Below are positions 21,067 to 57,170 of a stretch of DNA of 64,000 nucleotides, piece by piece. The stretch is from Cohnella cholangitidis (GTDB lineage Bacteria > Bacillota > Bacilli > Paenibacillales > Paenibacillaceae): the NCBI RefSeq assembly GCF_014107495.1, contig NZ_CP041969.1:4885501-4949500 (forward strand). Direction: 5' to 3'. A program made the position numbers and the translations under genes. A model generated the notes under the pieces. It was not told the origin of the DNA and searched no databases. It saw nothing but the letters and a program-made list of their open reading frames with translations. Position 1 is the first letter of the stretch, and the number at the start of each line of letters is the position of its first letter.

Positions 21067-21879
21067 TCAAGTATTGTTCAAGCGAGTGCGGGCGAAGGCT
21101 TGGCGATAAGAGGTCGGCGTTACGCCTGCCATTCGCTTGAACCATTTGGCGAACTGCTTGTCGTCTTCGATCCCGACCTTCTCGGCGATTTCTTTGACGT
21201 GAAGCTTCGTGCTCGCAAGCAGTTCCTTAGCCGCTTCCAACTTGATCTGATGGATATATTGCAACAGTCCCGAGCCGAATCGTTTCTTGAACATTCGCGA
21301 TAAATAATCTTTATTATAGCCCATATGGTTGGCAATTCGGGCCACGGAGATGTTTCGTTCCAATGCGTGCAGGCGCGTCCACTCCAGCAGCTCCGGAAGA
21401 TGCGGGGCTAACGCGTCCAAGGTGTCGGAATCCTGCAGCTGATCTGCCAATTCAATGAGCAGGCAGGTCAGAAAGTAGTCGCCGGCATGAGGAAAGCGAT
21501 AGCCTCCGTTCGCCGCGTGAAGGAGCTGACGGGCCAGAATGTGAACCCGGCTAGGTTGGGGGCAAGCCGCGTATCGAGGGATGTTGCCGTCCGGTTCCCC
21601 TAGCTGTTCGTCCGATATCAGAAAATGGAACCAGTAAAAGGAAACGCCGGGCGAGGACAGCTTGTATCCGCGATGCCGCTCCCCGGGCATTAGAACTAGT
21701 ATATCCCCTTCTTTCACCTCGTACATTCGGCTATCCACTTCAAGGAAAACAACGCCGGACACGCCGATAATAAGCTCATGGTCCGAGATCGTGCGATCCA
21801 TATGAGTCCAGCTTTCATAGGAGAGAAACTGGCCGCCCATGATCAGCCGATAGGGCTTTTGCAAATATAGGGGCAGCAT
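21067..21879 (-). CDS. AraC-family regulator with cupin sensor domain
   Basis: 270 residues. The N-terminal half is an AraC-type cupin that binds a small ligand, with VKEGDILVLMPGERH as the characteristic strand-turn. The C-terminal 100 residues are the DNA-binding domain (MGYNKDYLSRMFKKRFG and GIEDDKQFAKWFKRMAG). It is divergently transcribed from the GH127 arabinofuranosidase gene and probably controls it in response to an arabinoside. Upstream on its strand are AAGGAAG and a perfect TATAAT element (complement of 21938-21943). Confidence 0.9.
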   Translation of the reverse strand: MLPLYLQKPYRLIMGGQFLSYESWTHMDRTISDHELIIGVSGVVFLEVDSRMYEVKEGDILVLMPGERHRGYKLSSPGVSFYWFHFLISDEQLGEPDGNIPRYAACPQPSRVHILARQLLHAANGGYRFPHAGDYFLTCLLIELADQLQDSDTLDALAPHLPELLEWTRLHALERNISVARIANHMGYNKDYLSRMFKKRFGSGLLQYIHQIKLEAAKELLASTKLHVKEIAEKVGIEDDKQFAKWFKRMAGVTPTSYRQAFARTRLNNT

Positions 21880-21954
21880 CGCGGCGCTCTTCCTTTCTTT
21901 GGTTTAGGGTGAAAATGAGATCAGTTTTTGACACCTATTATACTCCAAACCCTA

Positions 21955-21984
21955 CCGACAAGCGACGGTCATTCCTTTTATGAT
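21955..21984 (+). promoter_or_regulatory. Candidate promoter of the GH127 gene
   Basis: CCGACA (four of six matches to the -35 consensus) and TATGAT (five of six) are separated by 18 bases, about 75 bases before the chosen start codon. The weak -35 would fit activation by the divergent AraC regulator. Confidence 0.4.
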
Positions 21985-22056
21985 AGTTTACAGGCGGACC
22001 CCGGAGTCACTGCGATGGGAAGTTCCGCGCGAATCTATCAGGAGCGGAGCGTGTCG

Positions 22057-24030
22057 ATGATGTTGGAAGCCAAGAAGCATCAATACTCTCGTCAACTTAA
22101 TTTGGAAGCGGTCAATATACAGGATCGGTATTGGTCTTCCTATGTGGACTTGATCCGCAATACGGTTATTCCTTATCAATGGGAAGCTATTAACGACAGA
22201 ATTCCCGATGCCGAGCCTAGCCATGCGATCCGTAATTTCCGTATCGCGGCAGGATTGGAAGAAGGGGAATTCGCGGGATTCGTATTTCAGGATACCGATT
22301 TGTACAAGTGGCTGGAAGCGGTCGGCTACTCGCTAGCGGTAAAGCCCGATGCCGATCTGGAAAAGATCGCGGACGAGGCGATTCGATTGATCGCCTCCGC
22401 GCAACAAGACGACGGCTACTTGAACACCTATTTCGCGGTGGCCAAGCCGGGTAAGCGTTGGACCAATTTGACGGATTGCCATGAGATGTATACGGCCGGC
22501 CATCTGATCGAAGCTGCCGTTGCTTATTATCAAGGAACGGGCAAGAGCGAATTATTGGACGTGGCTACGCGCTTCGCGGATCATATCGACGATAAATTCG
22601 GTCCGGAACCGGGCAAGATGCGCGGTTATGACGGTCATCAGGAACTGGAGCTCGCCCTGGTGAAACTCTACGAAGCAACGGGCAATTCCCGTTATCTAAA
22701 CCTTGCGGGTTATCTGATCGATGAGCGCGGCAGCGAACCGAATTTCCTGCGCGCGGAGTGGGAAGAACGAGGCCGTATTTCCCATTGGGCTCCCGGCGTC
22801 GTCCAGCAAACTCCAGGCCTTGAATATCTCCAAGCGCATCAGCCCGTGCGGGAGCAAACAACGGCTATCGGCCACGCGGTAAGGGCAGTCTACATGTATA
22901 CGGCTATGGCGGATCTGGCTTTGCATAGAGGAGACGCGAGTTTGCTTGCCGCATGCGAACGGTTGTGGAACAACCTCGTCCATCGGCAAATGTACGTCAC
23001 CGGAAGCATAGGCTCGACGCATCATGGGGAAGCTTTCACTTTCGATTACGATCTGCCGAACGATACGAACTATTCCGAGACTTGCGCTTCGATCGGCCTC
23101 ATCTTCTTCGCGCACCGCATGCTGCAACTGAAGGCCAAGGGCGAATACGGCGACGTGATGGAAAGGGCGCTGTACAACACGGTCACGGCCGGAATCGCGG
23201 GTGACGGCAAGCATTACTTCTATGTCAATCCGATGGAAGTATGGCCGGAGGCTAGCGAGCGCAATCCCGGCAAGCACCATGTGAAGGCGGTCAGGCAGAA
23301 ATGGTACGGATGCGCTTGTTGCCCGCCTAACGTGGCCCGGATACTCTCCTCGCTCGCGTACTATATTTTCACTTCCGACGAGAATACCCTTTATACGCAC
23401 TTGTATATTGCCAACGAGACGGAGCTGGAACTGTCCGGACGCAAGGTTCGCCTTAGGCTGGATAGCGGTCTTCCTTGGAAAGGCGAAGCGAAGCTAACCG
23501 TTGCCGAGGCGGCGGGAGAAGGCGCGTTCACGCTCGCGATGCGCGTTCCTGGTTGGTCGAAGACGAGCGCCTTCTCTATCAACGGGGAAAAGATTACTCC
23601 GGATATCGTCGATGGTTATGCGTACGTTAGCCGGGATTGGCGCGCAGGCGATGTATTGGCTATCGAACTGGACATGGAGCCGCAACGGATCTACGCGCAC
23701 CCTCATCTTCGCGCGAACGCGGGGCGTGTCGCCCTCCAGCGCGGTCCGCTCGTCTATTGCTTCGAGGAGACGGACAACGGCGCACCGCTTGCTTCGTTAA
23801 CGCTGCCCGCGACTTCTTCCATTCGACCTGTTCATGCCGAATGGCGCGACGGGGTCGTATTCCTGGAGATGGAAGGGTATCGGACGGAGGAGACCGAGCT
23901 ACAGGAAAGCAAGCTCTATCGAACCGATCCGTACAAGCGCGAAACTCGCCGCCTGCTCGCCGTTCCCTATACGCTGTGGGGCAACCGTAATCCGGGCGAG
24001 ATGTTGGTGTGGATTAGAGAATCGGAGTAA
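22057..24030 (+). CDS. GH127 beta-L-arabinofuranosidase
   Basis: Cytosolic glycoside hydrolase of about 657 residues that removes terminal beta-L-arabinofuranose from short arabino-oligosaccharides. No signal peptide. The metal-thiolate active site of the family is complete: E325 (GEAFTFDY), E341 and C343 (YSETCAS), and the pair C421-C422 (GCACCPPN); in characterised members one cysteine of that pair is the nucleophile and the others bind zinc. The start ATG 22057 has CGGAGC six bases upstream; the frame is open about 130 bases further but lacks a ribosome site. Controlled probably by the divergent AraC gene. Confidence 0.93.
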   Translation: MMLEAKKHQYSRQLNLEAVNIQDRYWSSYVDLIRNTVIPYQWEAINDRIPDAEPSHAIRNFRIAAGLEEGEFAGFVFQDTDLYKWLEAVGYSLAVKPDADLEKIADEAIRLIASAQQDDGYLNTYFAVAKPGKRWTNLTDCHEMYTAGHLIEAAVAYYQGTGKSELLDVATRFADHIDDKFGPEPGKMRGYDGHQELELALVKLYEATGNSRYLNLAGYLIDERGSEPNFLRAEWEERGRISHWAPGVVQQTPGLEYLQAHQPVREQTTAIGHAVRAVYMYTAMADLALHRGDASLLAACERLWNNLVHRQMYVTGSIGSTHHGEAFTFDYDLPNDTNYSETCASIGLIFFAHRMLQLKAKGEYGDVMERALYNTVTAGIAGDGKHYFYVNPMEVWPEASERNPGKHHVKAVRQKWYGCACCPPNVARILSSLAYYIFTSDENTLYTHLYIANETELELSGRKVRLRLDSGLPWKGEAKLTVAEAAGEGAFTLAMRVPGWSKTSAFSINGEKITPDIVDGYAYVSRDWRAGDVLAIELDMEPQRIYAHPHLRANAGRVALQRGPLVYCFEETDNGAPLASLTLPATSSIRPVHAEWRDGVVFLEMEGYRTEETELQESKLYRTDPYKRETRRLLAVPYTLWGNRNPGEMLVWIRESE

Positions 24031-24150: not shown

Positions 24151-24645
24151 CTATCTGGTCTTCGCGCCGAGAAAATCCCGGTAGATCCCGGGAGTGGAAT
24201 CCGGAATTCGGATCGCTCCGACGGCTTTCTCGTAAAATTCAGCAGGTCCGACGCCTCCTATGATCGCGTAGACGTAGCCGGCTTCCCTCATGCCGTAGAG
24301 GCTCTTGAGCAGCAGCGCTTTGCCGATGCCTTTGCCTTGCTCCGATTCCAGCACCCGAGTGGGACCGAAGAAATTCGGCGCCGTAGCATCGTAGCAGGCA
24401 TAGCCTAGGATGTCCGCGCCCCGGGTGGCCAAGTAACAGGTAACCGGCGTTCGGGAAAAGCAGACGTCGGCTTCTCCCGCGGCGTTGCGGCTGGAATGCT
24501 GCGCGACCCAGTCGACGACTCGGAGCTTATCCGGAGCGAGCGCGCGGTGAATGCGGATGCCTTCTTGCTCCAGTCTGGAGAGAAGCTCCTCCTGAGGGGG
24601 AAGCTTTAATAAATTGACGAGCATATCTGCCATTTTTTCGTTCAC
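24151..24645 (-). CDS. GNAT-family N-acetyltransferase
   Basis: 164 residues, cytoplasmic. The acetyl-CoA binding motif is ESEQGKGIGKALL, flanked by the expected strands (ILGYACYDA, GYVYAIIGG). The end EFYEKAVGA is typical of GNAT enzymes. It is the third gene of the murQ-nagZ operon, 12 bases after nagZ, so its acceptor may be an amino sugar such as the glucosamine or muramic acid produced during peptidoglycan recycling; that is inference from context. Confidence 0.88.
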   Translation of the reverse strand: MNEKMADMLVNLLKLPPQEELLSRLEQEGIRIHRALAPDKLRVVDWVAQHSSRNAAGEADVCFSRTPVTCYLATRGADILGYACYDATAPNFFGPTRVLESEQGKGIGKALLLKSLYGMREAGYVYAIIGGVGPAEFYEKAVGAIRIPDSTPGIYRDFLGAKTR

Positions 24646-24657
24646 TCCTCGTTAGGG

Positions 24658-26219
24658 TTACTCAGTCAGTAGGGTAACGGTCGGTTTGCCGACGGCTTCC
24701 GACTTGCCTTGAAGCACGTTCGCGACGGCGTCGAAGATTTGGGCGGTATATTCGTAAGCGGCCAGCGACCAGACCGCCGGGTTCAGATGCTTCAGGTCGT
24801 AAGGATTCCGCAAGGCGACCGCGACGACGGGAACGCCTAGCGACGCCAGACGGTTCGCCAGTTCCAACTGTCCCCGATAGAGGTGGCCGTTGTAAGTTCC
24901 GACCACGATACAGCTGGCTCCGGTCGTTCGCGCGACGATCGCGGCGATTTCGTCCTCCGTCGGATTAGAAGGCGTGATCTCCGCGCGACCCCCTAGCTTC
25001 TCAGCCATATAATCGGGGAAGGTCAACGGATCGTCGACGAGATTGGATACCTTCGTGGCCCGGAAAATCGCGCAACCCAGAAAAAATGGATTATCGCCCA
25101 AGGGCGGGAACCTCCCGCCCGGCACGCGGATCGGCGTTAACGTCCGCTCCAGCAGCTTGCGGTTCTCTTCCGCATGGGCGGAGCAGCCGACGATCGACGG
25201 ATTGTCGGCGGCCGGTTCAAATATCTCATCTTGAGAGCGGAGATGCGCTCAAGCGACCGTTCCCATTCCGCTTGGTCGATTTCTCCCGCTTCCAAGGCTT
25301 CCCGGATCGCTTGCGCGGAGGCGGCCGCTAAGGAAGCGGTATGCGATACGAGCAGCAGATCGGCTCCGGCTTTGGCGGCTTCGACCGTTCCCTTGACGGT
25401 GCCGAATGAATGCTGGATCGCTTTCATCTCCATGCAGTCCGTCATGACCAATCCCTGGAAGCCCATCTCTTCCCGCAGCAGTCCGGTCAATATTTTCCGG
25501 GACATCGTCGCGGGCAGCTCCGGATCCAACCGAGGAAATACGATATGGGAAGACATGAGGGCCGGAATTCCGGCTTCGACGGCAGCCTGGAAGGGCGCCA
25601 GCTCGATTCTCCGAAGCTCGTCTATCGTTTTATCCACGACGGGAAGCGCAAGGTGGGAATCTACGCTAGTATCCCCGTGTCCCGGGAAATGTTTCCCGCA
25701 GCTGAGCGTGCCGCCGTCGTCCAACCCGCGCATCATGGGGAGAGCGAATCGAACGACCGTCTCGGGCTTCTCTCCGTAGCTGCGAACGCCGATGACCGGG
25801 TTCGCGTCATTGGAATTGACGTCCAGCACGGGCGACAGGTTGAAGTTGACGCCGAGCGCCCTCAGTTCCAGCGCGGTCATCCTTCCTGCCGCGTAGGCGT
25901 TTTGCGGGTCGCCCGTCGCGGCAATGGCCATGGCGCCCGGAATGCGGGTCGCGTCTCCGGGCAGACGGGAGACGGCTCCGCCTTCTTGGTCGATGGCGAT
26001 AAACGCCGGCTGTCCGGTTTCCTCCAGCACCAACCGCTGAATCTCCCGGCATAGCTCCCGAAGCTGCTCCTTGTCCGTAATATTCCAAGCGAACAGGATA
26101 ACGTTGCCGATTTTCCACGTTTTCACTAGGTCGATAAACGCTTCATCCAGATGGGGGCCGTCGAATCCCGCCATCATCCGTTGTCCGATTTGACGGGTAA
26201 GAGATAAGTCCTTAATCAT
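24658..26219 (-). pseudogene. nagZ: nagZ, GH3 beta-N-acetylglucosaminidase, frameshifted
   Basis: GH3 enzyme that removes GlcNAc from muropeptides and GlcNAc-MurNAc. The catalytic His loop KHFPGHGDTSVDSH and nucleophile D261 in MTDCMEM are intact, and the protein begins MIKDLSL without a signal peptide, so it should be cytosolic, unlike the secreted NagZ of Bacillus subtilis. The frame breaks near 25207-25213: the N-terminal part would stop at 25137, while the other frame continues ADNPSIVGCSAHAEENRKLL to 24658 and supplies the second domain. Adding one G/C in the GGCCGCC run restores a single protein of about 520 residues. Overlaps murQ by eight bases. Confidence 0.88.
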
Positions 26220-27146
26220 TTTCGTTTCCTCCAGGTTCAGGCCCTTTTCGGCTGCGGATCGCCGCCTTGAGTCTGCCTTCGTTCAGCTCGAGCAGCGTCG
26301 TCGCTTCTCCGAAATCCGTACCGGTCTCCAGCATCAGAATAGCGGTCTTCACGTGCAACCCGGCCTGCTTCAACGTCTCCGCCGCCTGTTGCTCGGAGAC
26401 GCCGGTCACTTCGCGCACGATGCGGATGGAGCGGTCGTAGAGCTTGCTGTTGCTGGCTTTCAGGTCTACCATCAGGTTGTTGTAGACTTTGCCCAGTTTG
26501 ATCATGGCGCCGGTTGTCAGCATATTCAGCACCAGCTTCTGGGCGGAACCGCTTTTCAGCCGGGTGGACCCGGAAATGACCTCCGGACCGACCACCGGAT
26601 CGATGCAGATATCGCACAGTTCGCTCAGCCGGGAATTTTTGTTGGTGACGATGCCTATCGTTGCCGCTCCGATCTCCCGGGCTTGGCGAATGGCGCCCAG
26701 CACGTAAGGGTCGAGCCGCTAGCGGTGATTCCGACGACCACGTCGCCGGCGATCACGCCCTTCTCCCGGATCAGCAGCGCCCCGCTCTCCGCGTCGTCCT
26801 CGCTGCCTTCCACGGCGGTGCGGATGGCGGTATCTCCTCCGGCGATGTAAGCCTGCACGAGCTCGGGATCGGTTCCGTAGGTCGGCGGACATTCGCTGGC
26901 GTCCAGCACGCCCAGCCGTCCGGAGGTACCGGCTCCCACGTAGAACATCCGTCCCCCGTCCTTCAGCGATTTCACCACCATATCCACCGCTTCGGCGATC
27001 GTGTCGATCTCCTGGCGAACCGATCCGGGAACGCGCTGATCTTCTTGATTCATCAAGAGGAGCATTTCTCGCGTGTCGCGCTCGTCGATAGCCGAGGTCG
27101 CGGGGTTGTTCATTTCTGTCGTCAATTGCGCGAAGTAAGAAGTCAT
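26212..27146 (-). pseudogene. murQ: murQ, N-acetylmuramic acid 6-phosphate etherase, frameshifted
   Basis: SIS-domain lyase that cleaves the lactyl ether of MurNAc-6-phosphate to give GlcNAc-6-phosphate and D-lactate. The N-terminal part (FYVGAGTSGRLGVLDASE, PPTYGTDPELV, TAVEGSEDD) and the C-terminal part (IGIVTNKNS, SGSTRLKSGSAQKLVLNML) are both highly typical. They lie in different frames joined near 26708-26710: ASGST is followed by LTCWAPF in one frame where YVLGAIRQAREIG is expected. One extra G in the GGG run (plus strand) restores about 310 residues. First gene of the operon murQ-nagZ-GNAT, divergent from the RpiR regulator. Confidence 0.92.
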
Positions 27147-27180
27147 AAGTCATCCATCCTTTTCTGGACGCGATAGTGGT

Positions 27181-27209
27181 TTGATTCTATCGAACGCTCT
27201 GCGTATAAT
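27181..27209 (+). promoter_or_regulatory. Promoter of the murR-like gene
   Basis: TTGATT (27181-27186), a 17-base spacer and a perfect TATAAT (27204-27209) lie 45 bases upstream of the chosen TTG start. The palindrome-like element at 27209-27223 covers the expected transcription start. Confidence 0.6.
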
Positions 27210-27223
27210 GAGAATAATTTTCC
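27209..27223. promoter_or_regulatory. Degenerate TGAAA-N5-TTTCA operator at the murR/murQ divide
   Basis: TGAGAATAATTTTCC matches TGAAA-N5-TTTCA with one mismatch per arm. Perfect copies of this 15-base palindrome flank the ABC-importer and anmK promoters at 31940 and 32042. Its place over the start of transcription fits autorepression by the RpiR protein. This is inference. Confidence 0.45.
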
Positions 27224-27254
27224 TTTTCTATAAATATTGGGGCGGGTGATAGAT

Positions 27255-28124
27255 TTGACGAATATAGAAATCCGCATACGTAATGTCTATAGCGCCTTAA
27301 GCAACTCCGAGAAGAAAGCGGCGGATTACTTTCTTGCCGATGTCGAGAGTCTGTTTCATCTACCGATCGCCCAACTGGCGGAGAACGCCGGCGTTAGCCA
27401 GGTCGCTTGGGTCAGGCTGGCCAAAGCCCTCGGCTTCGACGGCCTGAAGGACATGAAGCGAAGCTTGTTCAGCGAGCTTAACAGCGGTGCGGCGGAGGAC
27501 GAAGACAAGAACCGTTTCATTTTTACCGATATCAAAGATTACGCCGGACTCCCGGATGTTTTCAAAGCGATCAAAAGCAGCAGCATGCAATCTATCGAAG
27601 ATACCATTAGCCTGCTTAACGCCGAAGTGGTAGACGCGGTCGTGCGGAAGCTCATCGATGCGCGCTCCGTCAAGCTTTTCGGCGTAGGTGCATCCGCGCT
27701 AGTGGCCGAGGATTTCTACAACAAGCTGCTGCGCATCGGCAGCAACGTCTGCTTCAGCCATGACGGACATATTCAGTTGACCTACGCGGCCAATACCCGG
27801 GAAGGGGACGTCTGCTTTTTCATCAGCCATTCCGGCATGACCAAGGAAGTGAACGAAGCTTTCGACATCGCCTCCCAAACCGCCAACGCGACGATGGTTT
27901 CCTTGACCCGGCTGGGCAAAAATCCGTTGGCCGCCAAATCCGACTACGAACTCTACACGTCGTCGCCGGAAACCAATCATCGCAGCGGCGCCATGAGCAG
28001 CCGGATTTCCCAACTGATCGTCATCGACGTGCTGTTCACGGCCATGGCCAACAGAAACTACGACAATGTCATCCAAAACCTGGTTCGGAGCTCCGAGTCG
28101 TGCCGGAATTACAGGAAGTTCTAG
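27255..28124 (+). CDS. murR: RpiR/MurR-family transcriptional regulator
   Basis: About 289 residues. The N-terminal HTH_6 domain (SNSEKKAADYFLADVESLF, QLAENAGVSQVAWVRLAKALGF) is followed by a SIS sugar-phosphate-binding domain (VKLFGVGASALVAEDFYNKL, FFISHSGMTKEV). Proteins of this type next to murQ usually respond to MurNAc-6-phosphate. I chose TTG 27255, after GGGGCGGGTGA; GTG 27246 and TTG 27237 are in frame but overlap that site. Divergent from murQ, 108 bases between starts. The gene symbol rests on family and neighbourhood. Confidence 0.85.
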   Translation: MTNIEIRIRNVYSALSNSEKKAADYFLADVESLFHLPIAQLAENAGVSQVAWVRLAKALGFDGLKDMKRSLFSELNSGAAEDEDKNRFIFTDIKDYAGLPDVFKAIKSSSMQSIEDTISLLNAEVVDAVVRKLIDARSVKLFGVGASALVAEDFYNKLLRIGSNVCFSHDGHIQLTYAANTREGDVCFFISHSGMTKEVNEAFDIASQTANATMVSLTRLGKNPLAAKSDYELYTSSPETNHRSGAMSSRISQLIVIDVLFTAMANRNYDNVIQNLVRSSESCRNYRKF

Positions 28125-28173
28125 AAACAAGGCGATCGTCGGGACCTTCCTTAAGGGGGATCTTCATGGCCGG

Positions 28174-29046
28174 TTAGCCCTTGACCGATCCGACCGTTAA
28201 CCCGGCGACGAAGAAGCGCTGCAACAGCGGGTAGAGAATGATGATCGGCAGCGTCGACGTAATGATGACCGCCGATTTGATCGACATGGCGATCGTGCTC
28301 TTGTCGGCCGCTCCGGCTCCGTCTCCGACCATGGCCGTTCCGTTGACGATATTGCGCAGGAAAAGCATGACCGGATATTGATTCGTATTGAGATAGATCA
28401 GGCCGTTAAACCAGTCGTTCCAGAAGAAGACGGCGGTGTACAAACCGATCGTGGCCAGCGCGGGCGTGGACAGAGGCAGGATCACCCGCTGCAATATTCC
28501 GAAATAATTCAAGCCGTCGATTATGGCGGCTTCTTCTATTTCCGCCGGAATGGCCCGGAAGAAGTTGATCAGAATGATCAGGTTGAACTGGTTGATGGCG
28601 AAAGGGATCAGCATCGCCCATACCGTGCCGGTCAGGTGAAGATCGGAGATCAGCAGGTAGGTCGGGATGAGTCCGCCGGAGAAAAACATCGAGAAAACGA
28701 TGAGCATCATGACCAGCTTATGCCCCTTGAGAAATTGCTTGGACATCGCATAGGCGAACAGGGCGCTCATGAACAGGGAGATCAACGTTCCCCCGATGGT
28801 ATAGAATATCGTATTGCCGTAAGCCTTGAAGAAGTTCGGATAAGTGAAAATCTGGTTGTACGCTTCGAAGTTCAAACCGACGGGAAAGAGCGAGACTTTG
28901 TTGTTGATGATCGCGTCGGGGCTCGAAAGCGACAGTGCCAGCATATAAAGAAACGGGACGAAGCAGATCAGGACGACGACAACCATAAAACCGTTGATAA
29001 GCACGTCGCCGATCGTCAGGGGCCGATATTTTCGTTGTTTGTTCAT
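28174..29046 (-). CDS. ABC permease, LplC/YtcP type
   Basis: 290 residues with six helices (VLINGFMVVVVLICFVPFLYML and others) and an EAA loop EEAAIIDGLNYFGILQRVIL. The C-terminus YPLLQRFFVAGLTVGSVKG is a hallmark of this Firmicutes permease family. Third gene of the binding protein - permease - permease operon, 21 bases after the first permease. The operon is sandwiched between murR and anmK, so the transported compound is probably a cell-wall sugar; that is inference. Confidence 0.94.
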   Translation of the reverse strand: MNKQRKYRPLTIGDVLINGFMVVVVLICFVPFLYMLALSLSSPDAIINNKVSLFPVGLNFEAYNQIFTYPNFFKAYGNTIFYTIGGTLISLFMSALFAYAMSKQFLKGHKLVMMLIVFSMFFSGGLIPTYLLISDLHLTGTVWAMLIPFAINQFNLIILINFFRAIPAEIEEAAIIDGLNYFGILQRVILPLSTPALATIGLYTAVFFWNDWFNGLIYLNTNQYPVMLFLRNIVNGTAMVGDGAGAADKSTIAMSIKSAVIITSTLPIIILYPLLQRFFVAGLTVGSVKG

Positions 29047-29067
29047 GCGGTGCCGCTCCTTTCCGGG

Positions 29068-30026
29068 TTAGTAGATGCTTTCGCCGGACATTTTTTTGCT
29101 AAGCCAGTTGGTGCTGGATACGAGAATGACGCCGATGACTCCGCTGAACAGTCCGATGGCCGTCGCGTAGGAATAGTTCTGGTTCATGAGGCCGGTACGG
29201 TAGACAAGAGTGTCGATAATGTCGCTTACCGCGGCGTTGGACGGCGTATAGAGCAGCAGCACTTTCTCGAATCCGAGGCTCAGGAGCGAACCGACGTTCA
29301 GGATCAGCATGACCATGATCGTGGACATGATCGAAGGAATGGTCACGTAGATCACCTTCTGGAACCGGCTGGCGCCGTCGATGTCCGCCGCTTCGAACAG
29401 CTCGCGGTTGACGCCGGTAATGGCGGCCAAATAAATAATGGCGGTCCAACCCGTATATTGCCACGTTTCGGTAAGGATGTAGATCGGACGGAAGTACTGC
29501 GGTTCGTTGACGAAATAAATCGGATCCATGCCGAACAAACTGCCGAGCACCCGGTTCAGCAGCCCGGAGCTGGGGGAGAGAAGCTCGCCCAGAATCGCGA
29601 TGACGACAACCGTGGAAATAAATCGCGGCATATACGAGATGGTCTGCACGAATTTGCGGAATCTCTTCGAGCGCACTTCGTACAGCAACAAAGCGAAGAT
29701 GATCGGAATCGGGAAATTGATCAGGATGTTCCCGAACGACAGGATAAGCGTATTGTTGAAAGCGCGCCAGAAGGCCGGGTCCTGAAGAAAACGTTCGAAG
29801 TACGCCCATCCGACCACTCGGTGCCGTAAGGGCCCATGCCGGGACGGTAGCGCCGGAAAGCCAAGACGTTGCCGATGAGCGGAGCGTATTTAAACAGTAA
29901 AAAGTGGCACAAGGGCAGCAACATCATCACGTAAAGCTGCCAATAACGGCGAAAATGGCGGCTCGACGAAGAACGCGGGGTAACGTTATCGCGCGGAGAC
30001 TTGGAAACCATCGTCGTATCGGTCAT
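29068..30026 (-). pseudogene. ABC permease, LplB/YtcP-partner type, frameshifted
   Basis: First permease of the importer. The N-terminal frame (MTDTTMVSKS to YGTEW) contains the first helix (YWQLYVMMLLPLCHFLLF) and the next frame (VGWAYFERFLQDPAFWRAF onward) contains the remaining helices, the EAA-like loop (FEAADIDGASRFQKVIYVTIP) and the C-terminus TNWLSKKMSGESIY. The two meet at 29814-29815, where one extra C on the plus strand gives EWVGWAYF and a continuous protein of about 319 residues. AAAGGTGA precedes ATG 30026. Confidence 0.88.
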
Positions 30027-30178
30027 AATCTTTCACCTTCTTTGCTGGGTTGAGGGAGACGGCGAAGCCGCGCGTACCCGGATGAACAAAGACCTGCCGC
30101 AAAAAAATGTCGGTCAACCCGTGACTCCATTTTTCCTGGCAGGCCTTTATTCAAGTCATTGGAATTTCCGGAATCCGT

Positions 30179-31795
30179 TTATTTTTTCAAGTTGTCGTTG
30201 TACATTTGAGTGAATTTCTCGATCTGCAGCGTCTTCATTTCTTTCACGTATTGATCCCAGTCCTTATCCAGGCTCTTCTTGCCGGTCAGGAACCCGTCGG
30301 CCCACACTTCGAACGTGTCGTAGAGAGGCGTCTGCAAGGATGCGGCTTCCTCGGCCGTCATGTCGTCGAACATCGGCGTCGGAGGAATCGCCTGAATCGG
30401 ATCTTGCATCGCGGCTACCGTAGCGTTGATCTGGCTGTAATTTTCGTCGTACTTCGTCATTTCGCGCGCGTTGACCCACACCAGCTGGGTAACGTCGGAA
30501 CCGGCGCCGTAGTTCAACTGCATCGTTTTGTAGATGCCGTTAGGAGAGTTGACGATTTCGTCGGAATACTTGATTTTGTCGCCGTCCATCGTGTAAGTTA
30601 CGCCTTCGGCGCCAAGACCCCAAATTTTCGAGCCCTCTTCGGAGAAGAAGATTTCGTCGACTTTTTTGACCAGTTGTTCGAAATCCTTGCGGTCCGCCGT
30701 TTTCTTAGGGAACATGATACCGGAACCGGTTCTGCTCTTTTGTTGGTGGTGAGCTCCCGCCGGGCCTGCGAGCGGCGGATACATTTGCAGGTCGAATCCG
30801 GCTTCCGTCGCCGCGCCTTCCACGCCGCCGATTTGGTCGTAATAGGCATAGGAAGCGAAGGACTTGCCGGTCGCGAGCTTCGTGGACCACTTGTCTCCGT
30901 CGATCGGGTCGGCCATTTCCGGATCCAGCAAACCTTCCGCGTACAGCTTGGAGAAGAACTTCATGTATTCTTTGTATTGGTCGCTGATGGCGCCCGGGAA
31001 GTAGGTTTGGTTCGCATAATCCCAGCTGAGCGTTCTGGAGCCGTCGGCGCCGTTCTTGCCTACGCTGATGCCGAAGGAAGGCATCGTCATGCGGTACAGA
31101 ACCCGCGGGCCGGCGAGAATCGTCAGCGGATAGGAATCCGGGTTTTCCGCCTTGAATTTCTTCAATACGTTGTACAGGTCGTCGAACGTTTTCGGCTCTT
31201 GGAGACTGTATTTCTCCAGCAGATCCTTTCTCAGGATCAGGCCGCCGTCGTAAAACGGCTTATCGTAAAGCGATGGCAGATAGTAGCGTTTGCCGTCCTT
31301 CAGGTTGAGATCCGCGAGATCCTTTTCCAGACCGAATTCCTTGGCTTTTGCATTGAAGTTAGGAGTCCAATCGGAGTAATCGCTGATCGGCACGATAGCG
31401 CCGTTCAAAGCCAAGGAGGCGTTCTCCCCTTTGGTGGATTGGTACAGAATAACGTCCGGCGCGTTGTTGCCGGTATTGAGCGCGAGAGAAACTTTCGTCT
31501 GGTAGTCGGCGATCGGAATGACTTCGAAATCGATATCCACGTTGAAACGTTTCTCGACTTCCTGGACGACCAGCCAATCTTCCTTGAAAGGCAGCGTCGC
31601 GTTGTCGGAGTAGAAGACGGAAAATTTCAATTTGTCTTCCGTCTTGCCGGAGTCGGTCGACGCGGGCGAGCTTGAGCTCGCGCTTGGCGACGGCGAAGCG
31701 GATTCGCCGTTGTTGTTCTTCGAACTGCATGCGGCGAGCGATGACATGACCATGATTGATGCAAGCGCGAGAGAAACGATTTTTTTCTTGGACAT
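30179..31795 (-). CDS. ABC transporter binding lipoprotein, LplA/YtcQ type
   Basis: 538 residues. Signal peptide with lipobox SSLAAC (Cys about residue 22), then a Ser/Pro-rich linker and a long family-1 binding fold (LKFSVFYSDNATLPF, PDVILYQSTKG, YYLPSLYDKPFYDGG). Proteins of this size usually bind oligosaccharides rather than monosaccharides. First gene of the operon with two permeases. It has a good promoter at 31901-31929 with a TGAAA-N5-TTTCA palindrome ten bases upstream. The neighbours (MurR, AnmK, NamZ, MurQ, NagZ) suggest muropeptide sugar or GlcNAc-MurNAc as substrate; not shown by the sequence itself. Confidence 0.94.
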   Translation of the reverse strand: MSKKKIVSLALASIMVMSSLAACSSKNNNGESASPSPSASSSSPASTDSGKTEDKLKFSVFYSDNATLPFKEDWLVVQEVEKRFNVDIDFEVIPIADYQTKVSLALNTGNNAPDVILYQSTKGENASLALNGAIVPISDYSDWTPNFNAKAKEFGLEKDLADLNLKDGKRYYLPSLYDKPFYDGGLILRKDLLEKYSLQEPKTFDDLYNVLKKFKAENPDSYPLTILAGPRVLYRMTMPSFGISVGKNGADGSRTLSWDYANQTYFPGAISDQYKEYMKFFSKLYAEGLLDPEMADPIDGDKWSTKLATGKSFASYAYYDQIGGVEGAATEAGFDLQMYPPLAGPAGAHHQQKSRTGSGIMFPKKTADRKDFEQLVKKVDEIFFSEEGSKIWGLGAEGVTYTMDGDKIKYSDEIVNSPNGIYKTMQLNYGAGSDVTQLVWVNAREMTKYDENYSQINATVAAMQDPIQAIPPTPMFDDMTAEEAASLQTPLYDTFEVWADGFLTGKKSLDKDWDQYVKEMKTLQIEKFTQMYNDNLKK

Positions 31796-31900
31796 ACGTG
31801 TGATGACCCCCCTGATTTTGATTGAAAGAAGGTTAGGCGGAACTACTTTCGAGAGCTATTCGCTGAAGGATTGGAAGCGGTTCCATTTTCCCATGAGCGA

Positions 31901-31929
31901 ATAATAACATATTTTATTTCAGTGGTCAA
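31901..31929 (-). promoter_or_regulatory. Promoter of the cell-wall-sugar ABC operon
   Basis: On the minus strand TTGACC (31924-31929), a 17-base spacer and TATTAT (31901-31906) each match five of six consensus bases. The untranslated leader to the start at 31795 is about 100 bases. Confidence 0.7.
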
Positions 31930-31939
31930 CGATGTTTTC

Positions 31940-31954
31940 TGAAACTTTATTTCA
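31940..31954. promoter_or_regulatory. Palindromic operator TGAAA-N5-TTTCA, ABC-operon side
   Basis: TGAAACTTTATTTCA is a perfect 5-base-arm palindrome ten bases upstream of the -35 box of the ABC operon. A second perfect copy is at 32042-32056. The 15-base length does not fit a CcpA site. The RpiR/MurR protein is the obvious candidate binder. Confidence 0.6.
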
Positions 31955-32041
31955 AGATTGATAAGAGATATTTTCCTTGCAATGCGGGTTATCGAGTCGG
32001 GGATGATCAAGAATTAAAAAACTAAAATTAACAATAATATA

Positions 32042-32056
32042 TGAAATATTGTTTCA
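32042..32056. promoter_or_regulatory. Palindromic operator TGAAA-N5-TTTCA, anmK side
   Basis: TGAAATATTGTTTCA has the same arms as the 31940 site and lies seven bases before the candidate -35 box of anmK. Placement just upstream of the promoter on both sides resembles an activator site rather than a simple road-block. Confidence 0.6.
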
Positions 32057-32063
32057 AATATGA

Positions 32064-32093
32064 TTGACGAGTTTGCGGGCGGCGGAATAAGAT
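32064..32093 (+). promoter_or_regulatory. Candidate promoter of anmK-namZ-murK
   Basis: TTGACG (five of six matches) and TAAGAT (four of six) are separated by 18 bases, about 75 bases before the anmK start. The weaker -10 fits a regulated promoter. Confidence 0.5.
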
Positions 32094-32168
32094 TAACCTC
32101 AGAAATATACAGAGAAGAGCGTCTGAGGGGTTAGAACGGAACTCCGAAACAGGAGGAGGAGAATGGGA

Positions 32169-33365
32169 ATGATGAGCTCGAATAAGCATTTTAATAGTCG
32201 CCGTTACGCCGTGGGCTTGATGTCGGGAACTTCCGTGGACGGCATTGACGCCGCGGCGATAGAGATCGTCGATGGAGTTGCCGGAGAACGGCCGCAAACC
32301 AAATTGCTTGCCTTCGAGAATATGAGTTATCCGGTAGCCGTACGGGAAGAGATTTTCGCGTTATTCGATCCGAAGACGGCCACGGTAGACCGAGTAGGAC
32401 GCATGAACGTATTGCTAGGCGAGCTGTATGCGAAGGCGGCGCTATCCGTGATCGCCAAAGCCGGACTCGTAACGGAAGATATCGCGGTGATCGGTTCGCA
32501 CGGACAGACGATCTATCATTCTCCGGAAGCTCAACCCTGGGAGGATCTCGACTTGCGATATACGGTACAGATCGGCGAAGGAGCCGTTATCGCGGCGAGA
32601 ACGGGCATCCCTTGCGTCTCCGACTTTCGCCCGGCCGATATGGCCGTAGGCGGACAAGGAGCGCCGCTCGTTCCATTTACGGAATACTTGCTCTATCGTG
32701 AGTTAGATCGGACCCTATTGTTGCAAAATATCGGCGGTATCGGCAATATAACGGTTCTCCCCGCTAACGGATCTCCCGAACAGGTATACGCTTTCGATAC
32801 CGGTCCGGGAAATATGCTGATCGACGGAGCGGTAGCGCGCCTGTATCCCGGACGAACGATGGATACGGGCGGGGAGATCGCCCGAGAAGGCAGCGTGCAT
32901 TCCGGCCTGCTGGAACGATTGCAGCAAGAGGAATATTACAGGCTTCCGTTGCCGAAATCGACGGGAAGAGAGCTATTCGGCTCATCCTACGTCGATGGAT
33001 TGCTTCGTTACGGACAGGAGTATCGGTTGTCTTCGAACGATCTGATCGCTACGGTGACGAAGCTTACGGCTTGGTCGATCGGCGAAGGGTATCGCCGATT
33101 TATTCGGGATTGCAATCCGGCGGAAGCGATGATCGTCGGCGGAGGAGGAAGCTATAATCCCGTGCTGATGGCATATATCGAGCAGGAATTTGAGCCGATG
33201 GGCGTTAAGGTGCTGACCCAAGAAGACGTCGGACTGAACAGCGACGCCAAAGAGGCGATCGCCTTCGCTTTGCTTGCCGATTACGCATTGGCCGGACGGC
33301 CGAACAACCTTCCGAACGTGACGGGGGCGAGGCGGCCAACGGTTCTAGGTAAAATATCATACTAA
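32169..33365 (+). CDS. anmK: Anhydro-N-acetylmuramic acid kinase AnmK
   Basis: Cytosolic kinase of about 398 residues that opens the 1,6-anhydro ring of anhMurNAc while phosphorylating it, giving MurNAc-6-phosphate, the substrate of MurQ. Signatures seen: GLMSGTSVDGIDAA at the N-terminus (phosphate-binding), NIGGIGNIT, FDTGPGNMLIDG and VVGGGGSYN-like IVGGGGSYNP. ATG 32169 lies eight bases after AGGAGGAGGAG; ATG 32163 is too close to it. First gene of a plus-strand operon with namZ and a murK-like kinase. Confidence 0.96.
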   Translation: MMSSNKHFNSRRYAVGLMSGTSVDGIDAAAIEIVDGVAGERPQTKLLAFENMSYPVAVREEIFALFDPKTATVDRVGRMNVLLGELYAKAALSVIAKAGLVTEDIAVIGSHGQTIYHSPEAQPWEDLDLRYTVQIGEGAVIAARTGIPCVSDFRPADMAVGGQGAPLVPFTEYLLYRELDRTLLLQNIGGIGNITVLPANGSPEQVYAFDTGPGNMLIDGAVARLYPGRTMDTGGEIAREGSVHSGLLERLQQEEYYRLPLPKSTGRELFGSSYVDGLLRYGQEYRLSSNDLIATVTKLTAWSIGEGYRRFIRDCNPAEAMIVGGGGSYNPVLMAYIEQEFEPMGVKVLTQEDVGLNSDAKEAIAFALLADYALAGRPNNLPNVTGARRPTVLGKISY

Positions 33366-33387
33366 ATTGTAGAGGAGCCAAGTCGCC

Positions 33388-34533
33388 ATGAAGATCCGAA
33401 ACGGCATCGACTGCATTTCCGAATACGGCCATCTATTCGAAGGGAAGCGCGTGGGACTCATTACGTCGCCGACAGGCTTAAACTCCGACTTCGTATCCAC
33501 GATTCGAATCTTGCATGAGAAGCATCAATTAGCCGCGATGTTCTCTCCCGAGCACGGCGTACGCGGAGATCAACAGGCTGGCGCTCTAGTGGACACTTAT
33601 GAGGATCCGATCACGGGCGTCCCCGTATACAGCTTGTACCGTCAAGATTCCAAGCGGCTTACGCCGGAGATGCTGGATGCGGTGGACGTTGTCGTATACG
33701 ACATTCAGGACGTCGGGGTCAGGTATTATACGTTTATCTACACGATGCTCTACGCCTTGGAAGATTGCGCGAAAGCGGGCAAGGAATTCGTCGTGCTCGA
33801 TCGGATCAATCCGTTGGACGGCATGACTGTCGAAGGAAATATTCTTAAGCCCGGCTACCGGTCGTTCGTCGGCAACTATCCTCTAACCGTACGATATGGG
33901 CTGACAGCCGGCGAAGTAGCGACGATGGCTAACGAGCAAATGGATTGGAACGGAAAGCTGAGCGTCGTAAGGTGCGAAGGCTGGGAACGGAACATGCTGT
34001 TTCCCGATACCGGCCGCATTTGGGTGCAGCCGTCCATGGGGCTTCCGCGGTTTGAAGCGGCGCTGCTATATTCGGGTACCTGCTTGTTCGAAGGCACGAA
34101 TCTATCGGAAGGAAGAGGAACGACCTCGCCATTCGAAATGATAGGAGCGCCTTTCATAAACGCCGAGCGGCTGGCGGACGAGATGAACCGCAAGAAGCTG
34201 CCGGGAGTTATCTTTCGTCCCGTCTTTTTCAAGCCGACCTTCTCCAAGTATCAAGACGAGCTGTGCCGCGGCGTCCAAGTTCACGTAACGAATGCGCGAG
34301 CCGTTCGCGCCTTGGAGACGGGAGTCCATTTGATGTTTACGATCAAGCAGAGTTACGAGGAGTTTGCTTTCCTGCCGCCGATCAAGGAGAATAGCAGGCC
34401 TTTCATCGATTTGTTGGGAGGCGACCGGTTATATCGGGACTCCGAACCAGCGGACGTACCGGTCATGCTGGCGCAATTCCGGGCGGAAAGCGAAGCGTTC
34501 GCGAAGCTTAAGGAGCGCTATCATCTTTATTAG
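33388..34533 (+). CDS. namZ: NamZ-like exo-beta-N-acetylmuramidase (GH171, DUF1343)
   Basis: 381 residues, the whole length being the DUF1343 family (YbbC of Bacillus subtilis, now NamZ), which removes terminal MurNAc from peptidoglycan fragments. Typical motifs: RVGLITSPTGLN, FSPEHGVRGDQQAG, VVYDIQDVGVRYYTFIYTM, VLDRINPLDG, FEGTNLSEGRGTTSPFE. It starts MKIRNGIDCISEYG with no signal peptide, so it is predicted to be cytosolic, in contrast to the exported Bacillus enzyme. It follows anmK by 22 bases with GAGGAG before the ATG. Substrate is likely imported MurNAc-containing disaccharide or fragments. Confidence 0.9.
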   Translation: MKIRNGIDCISEYGHLFEGKRVGLITSPTGLNSDFVSTIRILHEKHQLAAMFSPEHGVRGDQQAGALVDTYEDPITGVPVYSLYRQDSKRLTPEMLDAVDVVVYDIQDVGVRYYTFIYTMLYALEDCAKAGKEFVVLDRINPLDGMTVEGNILKPGYRSFVGNYPLTVRYGLTAGEVATMANEQMDWNGKLSVVRCEGWERNMLFPDTGRIWVQPSMGLPRFEAALLYSGTCLFEGTNLSEGRGTTSPFEMIGAPFINAERLADEMNRKKLPGVIFRPVFFKPTFSKYQDELCRGVQVHVTNARAVRALETGVHLMFTIKQSYEEFAFLPPIKENSRPFIDLLGGDRLYRDSEPADVPVMLAQFRAESEAFAKLKERYHLY

Positions 34534-34614
34534 CGGAGAGGTCGAGGAGAAGCGACTCGGGAATCCGTGTCCCAATATGAGCCTTGCGCGGCTCGGATAA
34601 GGAAGTGACCAGCG

Positions 34615-35525
34615 ATGAGATACGTAGCCGGCATGGATGGCGGCGGAACTAAAACCGCGGTGATTATCGCCGATGAGCGGGGTACCGAGGTACATGCCTT
34701 TAATTCCGGGCCGATTAATTATAACGGGCAGGACGAAGAAAGCATCCGCCGCAGTTTCGCGGAGATGTTCGAGACGATCTGCCGGGTTTGCGGCGGGTTG
34801 GAGCATTGCGCGCAATTGTGCATCGGAGCGGCCGGCGTCAGCAATCCGGCGGTCGTTTCCCGATTGACATCCCTTGCGCGGGAGTGCGGTTACCGGGGAG
34901 GAATCCTCGTTACGGGCGATCATGAAACGGCGCTGCGCGGCGCGTTGGATAGCCCGTACGGCATCATTCTGATCGCCGGTACCGGATCCATTTGTTACGG
35001 GATGAACGAATCCGGCTTGACTCATCGCGCCGGCGGCTGCGGATATCTCATCGATGACGAGGGCAGCGGTTACAGCATCGGCCGGGAACTCGCCGCGGCC
35101 GTCGCGAGAGCGAACGACGGCCGGATACCGCCTACCGCGATAACCGGACTCGTATACGGACGGTTGGGGATTGATTCGGTCCGTGAACTCGTCGGTTTCG
35201 TGCACGATAAGCGGACCAACAAGAAGGACATCGCCGCTCTGGCCCCCTTGTTGTCGGAAGCTTGCGCGCTCGGCGACGAGGCTGCGCTCGCCATCGCTCG
35301 CCGGAGCGCGGAGGCATTGTGCGAATTGGTCCATCCCGTCGTTGAAAGGCTGGGTCAACGGAGCGGAAATCTCGCCTGGCCGGGAGCGTCTTGCTCCATA
35401 ACGGGTTCGTGAGGTCCGAATTGATCGGGTTGTTAAAGCAGGATTATCCGGATTTGGACGTATTTCCCGCTAAGAGAGAGGCGGCTTTGGGCGCCGTTCA
35501 AATCGCGTTGGAACAATTGCGCTAG
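34615..35525 (+). pseudogene. MurK/NagK-like amino-sugar kinase (BadF/BadG fold), frameshifted
   Basis: Kinase of the ASKHA fold that probably phosphorylates GlcNAc and/or MurNAc released by NagZ and NamZ, replacing PTS phosphorylation. Motifs: GMDGGGTKTAVII (phosphate 1), LCIGAAGVSNP, LIAGTGSICYGMN (phosphate 2), HRAGGCGYLIDDEGSGYSIG. The first frame ends at 35412 with an unrelated tail; in the neighbouring frame LAGSVLLHNGFVRSELIG and a normal C-terminus run to 35525. Adding one C at 35375-35376 joins them (LALAGSVLLHN), giving about 303 residues. Third gene of the anmK-namZ operon. Confidence 0.85.
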
Positions 35526-35594: not shown

Positions 35595-35692
35595 TTCATG
35601 CTGCACATATCGTGCAATCTTGTCGGGATTTGTTGTTTGATAATGTGATACTATAGATAAACCAGATCTTACCAATGTACGGAGATGAAGCA

Positions 35693-42737: not shown

Positions 42738-43075
42738 GAATATCCTCCTTTAATGATAGAGTTATTCGTATTGTGTTGTTAGTTAATGTTGTTTAATAGT
42801 TAGACTAAAAACAAATAACAACACAAAACGAATACTCGATTGTAAGCGCTTCGAAATGGATTATACTACATAAATCTGAAAATATAACAGAAAAATTTGT
42901 TATTTATCTCATTTTGTTATCACTAACTAAAGTTTAATATTATTTTGTTATGCAATTATCGTAAAATCTTTCTTTATTCCATACACAGGAAGCATCATGC
43001 CATTTACCGATAAATCGCCCGAAGCTATGCTGAAGTGAAAATAGGTTTTTCCAACAAATAAAAGGAGTTGTTCCC
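42738..43075. promoter_or_regulatory. Shared control region of the GH26 and GH36 genes
   Basis: 338 A/T-rich bases without a gene. It contains an 18-base inverted repeat with one mismatch (ATTCGTATTGTGTTGTTA at 42764-42781 and TAACAACACAAAACGAAT at 42816-42833; 52 bases between centres). It also has three direct TTTGTTAT boxes (42897, 42913, 42944) and ATAACA at 42884. On the minus strand TTGTTA - 17 bases - TATTAA (within 42792-42820) is a plausible GH26 promoter inside the dyad. Confidence 0.6.
42841..42854. promoter_or_regulatory. Candidate catabolite-response element (CcpA site)
   Basis: TGTAAGCGCTTCGA matches 12 of 14 positions of the cre consensus TGWAANCGNTNWCA and has the typical AAGCGCTT core. 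It lies between the divergent mannanase and alpha-galactosidase genes, where glucose repression is expected. Confidence 0.55.
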
Positions 43076-45238: not shown

Positions 45239-45242
45239 TATC

Positions 45243-45282
45243 GCAAGCCATTCTCCGCGATTGGACGCGGGGAGTGGCTTGC
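45243..45282. terminator. Bidirectional terminator
   Basis: GCAAGCCATTCTCCGCG / CGCGGGGAGTGGCTTGC hairpin between the converging alpha-galactosidase and AraC genes. Confidence 0.85.
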
Positions 45283-45301
45283 TTAGTCTAGGCGGGCATA
45301 T

Positions 45302-46149: not shown

Positions 46150-46238
46150 TATAAATGACTCCCGCTCTTCGTGCAGATAGATTAAAATAAGGAGAATGGA
46201 AGTTCGCGATCAAAAGATGACTAGGGAGAAAAAGCTTA

Positions 46239-50400: not shown

Positions 50401-50489
50401 TACAGGAACTGAAACAGGCATTTCCCGCCGTGCTTGAAGTCAGCAAGACGAAGGAAGGCCACAGCAAGACGGCGTTTATCGTCAAATAA
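47399..50489 (+). pseudogene. sbcC: sbcC, SMC-like ATPase subunit, two frameshifts
   Basis: About 1030 residues after repair. N-terminal ATPase half (ISMTAFGPYRDTETIDF), long coiled coils, the zinc-hook CPVCGSEEHP near the middle, and a C-terminal half with signature KSMSGGEKFNASL and Walker B MMFIDEGFGSLDE. Break 1: GNTG is followed by QARRR instead of the Walker A continuation; one more G in the GGGG at 47509-47512 gives GNTGAGKTTIFDAI. Break 2: EAQ is followed by RNCKPL; one more G at 49494 gives EAQAQLQTAKARL and continues to the normal end. Both halves are otherwise well conserved. Confidence 0.9.
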
Positions 50490-50492
50490 AGA

Positions 50493-50536
50493 ACGCCCTC
50501 TCACGTGCCGTAATGGCAGAAGAGAGGGCGTCCTTT
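50493..50536. terminator. Bidirectional terminator
   Basis: ACGCCCTCTC / GAGAGGGCGT hairpin (loop about 19 bases) followed by CCTTTCGTTT, between converging sbcC and the amylase gene. Confidence 0.85.
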
Positions 50537-50558
50537 CGTTTAAATATCGGTTATGGAT

Positions 50559-55328: not shown

Positions 55329-55441
55329 TGATCCTCCTAAATGTGTGCGTTACCAGGCAGCCTTAAGTAAGCTGCGCTCGCAATTTCTCCCATACTGGGA
55401 TGATGCCAGTTGCCAGTCGGTTTTCTCAATCCTCCTTGTTG

Positions 55442-55455: not shown

Positions 55456-55493
55456 CAACTAGCAATAGTTTAGCGATTGATTTTAAAGTTCAG

Positions 55494-57151: not shown

Positions 57152-57170
57152 CGAAAAGGGGAAATCCACA

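Follow-up and report, generated by a model that had tools for sequence, protein, structure and literature searches.

An ABC importer and sugar kinases in place of a phosphotransferase: a probable peptidoglycan amino-sugar salvage locus in Cohnella cholangitidis

In Bacillus subtilis, the murQ-murR-murP-amiE-nagZ-namZ operon provides for recovery of N-acetylmuramic acid (MurNAc), with MurP as the uptake system and with NagZ and AmiE outside the cell (PMC5061867). The subject of this article is a locus at 24151..35525 of a 64,000-nt stretch (here called the window) of the 6.41-Mb, one-contig genome of Cohnella cholangitidis, which carries the same MurQ, NagZ and NamZ families and a MurR-like regulator, but has no MurP and instead combines an ATP-binding cassette (ABC) importer with ATP-dependent kinases and with NagZ and NamZ proteins lacking an export segment. 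A first-pass annotation, made from the letters of the window, had proposed this as a different layout of the pathway, and the existence of sets of ABC, kinase and NamZ genes in loci without a MurP-like enzyme IIBC (EIIBC) of the phosphotransferase system (PTS) supports that view.

Staphylococcus aureus (mupG-murQ-murP-murR) brings a disaccharide into the cell and cleaves it there, as we suppose for Cohnella, but in that species MurP first phosphorylates the disaccharide of MurNAc and N-acetylglucosamine (GlcNAc), MurNAc-GlcNAc, MupG cuts the phosphorylated product, and MurQ follows (PMC6262408). The order proposed here would be the reverse, with hydrolysis before phosphorylation. Clostridium acetobutylicum is said to possess MurK, a BadF-type kinase of MurNAc and GlcNAc, and GlmA, a glucosaminide acetyltransferase; a BadF-type kinase and an acetyltransferase occur here too, although the latter, a GNAT protein, is of a different, single-domain type. 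In Tannerella forsythia, MurT is not known to be of the ABC kind, and neither NagZ nor AnmK is known to belong to the MurT-MurK-MurQ set. That set takes up MurNAc unphosphorylated and passes it to the kinase MurK and then to MurQ (PMC10465942), and for C. acetobutylicum the accounts that cite its enzymes assign neither an importer nor a full gene set (PMC10465942, PMC4680927). An ABC importer dedicated to peptidoglycan fragments has a precedent in YejBEF-YepA of Agrobacterium (PMC9790009), which is a peptide-class muropeptide importer of Alphaproteobacteria, whereas that of Cohnella is carbohydrate-class, with a substrate-binding protein (SBP) of a different family. For MurNAc, a 2026 review lists MurP or MurT, and for Gram-positives it names a Dpp-type ABC system (PMC13204101); in mycobacteria, a preprint refers to a transporter not yet known (PMC13041923). 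No description of this importer or layout was found among the matches listed in the mostly non-subscription literature, largely judged by title or abstract. The enzyme families are thus already known; the importer assignment and the layout appear to be new.

It seems likely that the locus serves a MurR-controlled salvage of peptidoglycan amino sugars in which import comes first and phosphorylation last. The lipoprotein SBP and its two permeases, with an ATPase encoded elsewhere, would bring in glycan fragments that carry neither phosphate nor peptide (GlcNAc-MurNAc, MurNAc-GlcNAc and short oligomers). In the cytosol the GNAT protein would put back missing N-acetyl groups, NagZ and NamZ would alternately release GlcNAc and MurNAc, the MurK-like kinase would phosphorylate MurNAc (and perhaps GlcNAc too), and AnmK would deal with anhydro-MurNAc; MurQ would then convert MurNAc-6-phosphate to GlcNAc-6-phosphate, which NagA and NagB would feed into metabolism. 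This order, already suggested in the first-pass annotation, is favoured by the gene content, by the lack of any EIIC of the MurP class beyond a NagE-like protein, by conserved gene linkage, by the missing export segments and by operator-like palindromes common to related loci, while the substrates, activities, regulator binding and ATPase assignment are predictions. On balance we also favour the wider idea that an ABC importer of the carbohydrate class, dedicated to glycan fragments of peptidoglycan in unphosphorylated form, is a further route for MurNAc sugars, beside MurP and the single-component transporters, which travels with cytosolic NagZ, NamZ, AnmK, a MurK-like kinase, MurQ and an acetyltransferase partner of NagZ, and is common to Bacillota and Spirochaetota.

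All the genes that the first-pass annotation had named were recovered where it had placed them, with profile scores mostly far above chance, and profile searches bore out the set of GNAT, NagZ, MurQ, MurR-like RpiR, two permeases, lipoprotein SBP, AnmK, NamZ and BadF kinase, as follows.

24151..24645, minus strand: GNAT acetyltransferase of a conserved single-domain type (Acetyltransf_1 just above cut-off; orthologs)
24658..25125, minus strand: C-terminal part of NagZ in a separate frame (weak Glyco_hydro_3_C, below cut-off; aligns with residues 340-522 of the NagZ of Cohnella mopanensis)
25137..26219, minus strand: N-terminal catalytic part of NagZ (Glyco_hydro_3, E 8.6e-85; NF003740 above cut-off)
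26212..26703, minus strand: C-terminal part of MurQ (MurNAc-6-phosphate etherase) in a separate frame (TIGR00274 positions 143-290, E 8.7e-54)
26655..27146, minus strand: N-terminal part of MurQ (TIGR00274 positions 1-140, E 6e-51)
27237..28124, plus strand: MurR-like regulator of the RpiR family (HTH_6 and SIS; RpiR/MurR models all below equivalog cut-offs)
28174..29046, minus strand: ABC permease, LplC-type (BPD_transp_1 below cut-off; ortholog near the SBP in 44/48 loci)
29068..29817, minus strand: ABC permease, LplB-type, with its N-terminal part at about 29814-30026 in another frame (BPD_transp_1, E 2.8e-16)
30179..31795, minus strand: lipoprotein SBP of the importer, with a lipobox (LAAC) recognised by eye (SBP_bac_8, E 4.6e-17; 48 orthologs)
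31940..31954, no strand: TGAAAN5TTTCA palindrome, candidate MurR operator (pattern count)
32042..32056, no strand: second TGAAAN5TTTCA palindrome, in the divergent SBP/anmK promoter region (pattern count; same site in related loci)
32163..33365, plus strand: AnmK, anhydro-MurNAc kinase (PF03702, E 1.5e-105; NCBIfam AnmK)
33388..34533, plus strand: NamZ, exo-beta-N-acetylmuramidase, no export segment (NamZ_N, E 6.7e-77; NamZ_C, E 5.1e-48)
34615..35412, plus strand: MurK-like sugar kinase, BadF-type, whose frame breaks near the end, the rest lying at about 35376-35522 (PF01869, E 2.7e-24)

Both MurQ pieces match NCBIfam MurQ models (E 6e-51 to 1.7e-57) and between them cover positions 1-140 and 143-290 of TIGR00274, which identifies the etherase. 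Scores for the permease at 28174-29046 (23.1 bits against a Pfam cut-off of 26.4) and the GNAT protein (21.2 against 20.7) are so near or below the cut-offs that their identity rests mainly on orthology. The kinase had been taken for the only broken gene; in fact NagZ, MurQ, the permease at 29068-29817 and the kinase are each split, and all four are single open reading frames (ORFs) in the corresponding locus of C. mopanensis (L137), where the LplB-type permease has 319 residues. Four split genes among the ten of the locus, compared with one among 19 other window genes shared with C. mopanensis (Fisher p 0.036), could mean that the window copy is a decaying cluster without present function, its relatives being functional. 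We regard this as unlikely, though it deserves to be kept in mind: each split gene differs in length from the intact C. mopanensis copy at one internal site, by a single base that is missing, as would result from uncorrected long-read errors, and the remaining six genes have open frames and are 93-99% identical to their C. mopanensis counterparts. (Of five control genes put to the same length test, two also differed, AnmK by one such difference close to the start and the SBP by a balanced pair.) The pattern is compatible with both sequencing error and decay, and because intact copies exist in relatives it is from these that function is argued here.

Among the locus proteins scanned there were no matches to PTS families, as had been claimed, and none to the MupG (DUF871) family. 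Nor was a MurP indicated elsewhere in the genome, which would have told against the proposed scheme: PF02378, the EIIC class that includes MurP, finds only two proteins genome-wide, a NagE-like IICBA and a mannitol-type (MtlA-like) protein, ranked by NCBIfam nearest to GlcNAc/glucose transporters and to the mannitol transporter, respectively, though both below equivalog cut-offs. This search covered PF02378 alone among the PTS transporter classes and, apart from the NagE-like protein, gave no EIIC of the MurP class. The genome has a single NamZ, two copies of nagA over the cut-off, and a match to nagB that holds one in-frame TGA. No ATPase gene lies within the salvage locus, but an ATPase encoded elsewhere is 52% identical to one linked to ABC-type loci, and may be a shared ATPase that also serves this importer.

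How general is this arrangement? A search of 295 Paenibacillaceae genomes for MurQ found a match in 294 genomes at E 1e-3 (including other SIS proteins) and one above the cut-off in 188, and 120 MurQ neighbourhoods of up to 19.9 kb (L038-L157) were taken from at least 150 places, in a sample that leans to high-scoring MurQ and in which some neighbourhoods end at contig ends. EIIBC was present in 32 of the 120 (one representative resembles MurP, matching PRK09586 with E 6.8e-108 but under the equivalog cut-off), and the other 88 had no MurP-like EIIBC within the stretch; within Cohnella itself, 0/21 loci had one, counted by eye. NamZ was found in none of the 32 loci with EIIBC and 67/88 without, the kinase in 1/32 and 74/88, and the first permease in 3/32 and 79/88 (the latter are here called ABC loci). 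MupG, in contrast, was present in 16/32 PTS loci, 0/88 loci without EIIBC and 0/79 ABC loci. The ABC, kinase, NamZ, AnmK and NagZ genes occur jointly in 27 loci, so that the gene set does recur, as the first-pass annotation had asked, in other Paenibacillaceae without a linked murP. NamZ, the kinase and the ABC importer replace MurP and MupG, though by few evolutionary switches: on the MurQ tree (112 rows) the contrast needs only two changes, so the very small Fisher values for it overstate independence, and we have rejected a mutual exclusion of PTS and ABC by many independent events. The SBP of the window type accompanies only 4/79 ABC loci, and a different SBP cluster 50/79.

Three further genes were seen in the ABC-type MurQ loci: a PIG-L deacetylase (23/79, and 0/32 PTS loci), a 237-residue protein whose representative has no Pfam match (24/79, and 0/32), and a MalK-like ATPase (29/79).

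The KHFPGHGDT-VDSH Asp/His loop of intact C. mopanensis NagZ, a member of glycoside hydrolase family 3 (GH3), aligns with that of B. subtilis NagZ (3bmx), and its letters are identical in the window ORF; NamZ (GH171) has both NamZ_N and NamZ_C, with 4k05 and 4jja as solved relatives. Where NagZ and NamZ act was judged by whether a hydrophobic segment (mean Kyte-Doolittle of at least 2.2 over 11 residues) stands at the N-terminus ahead of the domain, which is a simple rule applied to ORFs with uncertain starts and not a trained predictor. By this rule, neither enzyme shows the export that is a trait of the MurP operon: the segment was found in 0/14 NamZ and 0/25 NagZ proteins of window-type loci, and in 0/67 and 0/25 of Paenibacillaceae loci (64 of the 67 loci bearing NamZ have both permeases and none has EIIBC), or, with the overlap of the two sets removed, in 0/78 distinct NamZ and 0/44 distinct NagZ N-termini. 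The SBPs, as a positive control, had it in 40/47 and 5/5 cases, and so did 19/30 NamZ proteins from the 30 best-scoring loci of 200 Bacilli genomes; N-terminal extensions of at least 46 residues were likewise present in 28/30 of these, but in only 1/14 window-type and 9/67 Paenibacillaceae loci. The suggestion that NagZ and NamZ act inside the cell is consistent with this. If both are cytosolic, disaccharides of both kinds, or longer chains, would be imported, and the locus has no amidase gene, which points to fragments free of peptide.

An importer that takes only free MurNAc (or anhydro-MurNAc) released outside, with cytosolic NagZ and NamZ for internal turnover or other substrates, would suit the kinase and AnmK, which as families both act on monosaccharides, and in B. 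subtilis and S. aureus MurNAc is taken up by MurP alone (PMC5061867). A pair of exo-hexosaminidases with opposite specificities and no export segment would, however, be expected only if sugars arrive in the cell still joined by glycosidic bonds. The closest SBPs of solved structure, moreover, bind oligosaccharides, and we think a free-sugar importer rather improbable. The import of intact muropeptides, as by YejBEF-YepA, with peptides removed in the cytosol, also seems improbable, and decidedly so. In its favour, a beta-lactamase-fold hydrolase, of a fold that also includes AmiE, is encoded in 11/79 ABC-type Paenibacillaceae loci, and most of 17 N-termini of this hydrolase look unexported by eye (ORF starts are uncertain, and those of L072 and L081 begin hydrophobic); but the proteins of the window locus include no match to amidase or LD-carboxypeptidase families, and its SBP and permeases match solved relatives of the carbohydrate class. 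A peptide-class SBP of the YejBEF-YepA type was not indicated either, only SBP_bac_1 and SBP_bac_8 being matched.

The importer that we prefer, one for peptide-free glycan fragments, is a lipoprotein SBP with two permeases of LplABC-like, carbohydrate-class membership (one of them below the Pfam cut-off), the solved chains nearest to the SBP being 5xs8, 5gub and AlgQ2. An alignment of five SBPs was used to scan a collection of genomes of 84,980 species, and gave 50 loci (L162-L211) comprising 48 orthologs (54-96% identity) and two remote paralogs (24-26%). The orthologs are from Cohnella, Paenibacillus, Lachnospiraceae and other Clostridia, and Spirochaetota, many in metagenome bins; the closest named match is that of C. 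mopanensis (96%). Near the 48 were found PermB (47), PermC (44), MurQ (27), NagZ (25), GNAT (21), RpiR (18), NamZ (15), AnmK (14) and the kinase (14), with at least one of MurQ, NagZ, NamZ, AnmK and the kinase in 37/48 loci, or 25/31 of those of at least 14 kb. The gene set is stable but gene order is variable, and near-complete sets occur in Spirochaetota (e.g. kinase-MurQ-RpiR-SBP-PermB-PermC-AnmK-NamZ-NagZ-GNAT in L186). In the SBP tree (42 rows, midpoint root) the 13 rows from Spirochaetota fall among those of Bacillota within a fully supported group of 30, which suggests, but does not prove, transfer of the importer between the two phyla. Linkage in two phyla, together with the palindrome described below, argues for the earlier proposal of an ABC importer in peptidoglycan-sugar salvage. 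An argument from Sphaerochaeta, that the module would serve scavenging in organisms supposed to have no peptidoglycan, was dropped on counts of the PF00905 transpeptidase in 11 Spirochaetota bins (none in three, one in seven, four in one).

In four Lachnospiraceae bins (L188, L190, L191, L196) a GH4-like gene adjoins the window-type importer, perhaps reflecting another way of cutting sugars. Five Clostridia bins (L192, L194, L195, L202, L208) have importer orthologs with both permeases and no salvage gene nearby, and in two of them (L192, L208) the importer is next to a gene whose product has about 1,000 residues.

Several observations weigh against the import-first scheme, besides the four frame-split genes of the window copy. 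Acidic oligosaccharides other than peptidoglycan are the ligands of the closest SBPs with solved structures (5xs8/5gub, AlgQ1/2). For eleven of the 48 SBP orthologs (six of the 31 whose loci reach 14 kb) the vicinity holds no salvage gene (L169, L170, L189, L191, L192, L194, L195, L200, L201, L202 and L208; several of these loci are short), and six of the eight of these that were included in the tree sit in a separate Clostridia group of 12 rows. In Anaerocolumna aminovalerica (L171) the importer adjoins a MupG-like match (35%), and elsewhere its genome encodes a MurP-like protein (E 2.4e-98, short of a cut-off that only one of 14 control genomes passes), so that PTS and ABC layouts can mix; the three PTS loci with permease genes, and the mere two changes on the MurQ tree, belong here too. 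Finally, the genome has ten further TGAAAN5TTTCA palindromes beyond the window (12 in all, against two for the reversed pattern), which may be due to chance or to another regulon. The salvage-free orthologs might be taken to mean that the importer is an ordinary one for plant or host glycans, its position next to the salvage genes being accidental: LplABC-type systems are numerous in Paenibacillaceae, the SBP superfamily is broad and the window is rich in other glycan hydrolases. Yet linkage in more than three-quarters of the loci, across two phyla and through changes of gene order, with operator-like sites, and the lack of any salvage gene near the two remote paralogs, make such an accident very unlikely.

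The palindrome TGAAAN5TTTCA was defined from an inverted repeat in the SBP/anmK stretch of the window and counted afterwards; a search for repeats common to the murQ/rpiR and SBP/anmK promoters gave nothing convincing. The 64-kb window has two copies of it, each in the interval that separates the divergent SBP and anmK genes (0.05 expected from dinucleotide shuffles). Loci L162-L211 have 23 in 19/50 loci (1.1 expected from mononucleotide shuffles), of which 22, in both phyla, fall near the aligned start of a salvage or importer gene, no more than 60 bases within it or 400 bases before it, and one precedes the importer of L170, a locus without salvage genes. Among Paenibacillaceae, PTS-type loci have 19 in 18/32 (0.8 expected), 17 of them before MurQ, and ABC-type loci 37 in 30/79 (1.15 expected), of which six precede no called gene and two an unclassed ORF. 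We infer that MurR may bind this sequence, as a candidate operator.

The intact kinase of C. mopanensis resembles a characterised MurNAc kinase, 8zo3, along its full length (residues 1-299, E 1.4e-50), and has the phosphate-binding motifs of the MurK type; the GTG motif is kept in 14/14 kinases of window-type loci, and the presumed catalytic Asp in 13 of the 14 (Glu in L168). Spirochaetota kinases are 25-30% identical to that of Cohnella, and T. forsythia MurK shows how this fold accommodates MurNAc (PMC10465942).

The GNAT protein has orthologs of 43-95% identity in 19 other rows of both phyla, with 34 positions invariant in the 20 rows, and adjoins NagZ in 16/17 loci that hold both. It has no specific family match, only weak general GNAT ones, which, with its 164 residues in a single domain, led us to reject it as GlmA, a tandem GNAT protein of about 328 residues. 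A different tandem GNAT, forming a cluster in six Paenibacillaceae loci, does match 5kga/5kf1 ('Predicted acetyltransferase', E about 1e-8), presumably GlmA, while another tandem GNAT does not; GNAT clusters of three kinds are present in 30/79 ABC loci and 0/32 PTS loci. The second-best solved relative of C. mopanensis NagZ is 4zm6, a fungal fusion of a glucosamine acetyltransferase to a GH3 N-acetylglucosaminidase, and bacterial enzymes of such a kind reportedly put N-acetyl groups back on peptidoglycan fragments ahead of their cleavage (PMC4680927). We propose that the window GNAT may similarly re-acetylate de-N-acetylated glucosamine ends before NagZ acts.

The preponderance of MurQ loci without a MurP-like EIIBC (88/120) raises the question of how their owners take up MurNAc. 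A testable answer is offered here, with a named importer family, a reversed order of reactions and a candidate operator. If it is correct, a sugar-class importer for cell-wall fragments would bear on wall turnover, on the scavenging of dead bacteria and on levels of muropeptides in soil and gut.

Finally, some neighbouring genes may be mentioned. Just beyond the salvage locus, at 21067-24030, is a gene for a GH127 beta-L-arabinofuranosidase by a divergent AraC-type regulator (C. mopanensis counterparts 90% identical), and right after the kinase, at 35675-38632, that for a KAP-family P-loop NTPase of 985 residues, with membrane-like stretches by eye and no counterpart among the C. mopanensis ORFs compared. 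A run of glycan genes around an SbcD-like gene (40200-58892), part of it also without counterpart among those ORFs, includes GH26 with carbohydrate-binding domains, GH36, an AraC regulator and a 1589-residue alpha-amylase-domain protein with CBM25/26. Also there, 47593-50489 is a two-frame split of the counterpart to a 1030-residue C. mopanensis protein encoded after the SbcD-like gene.

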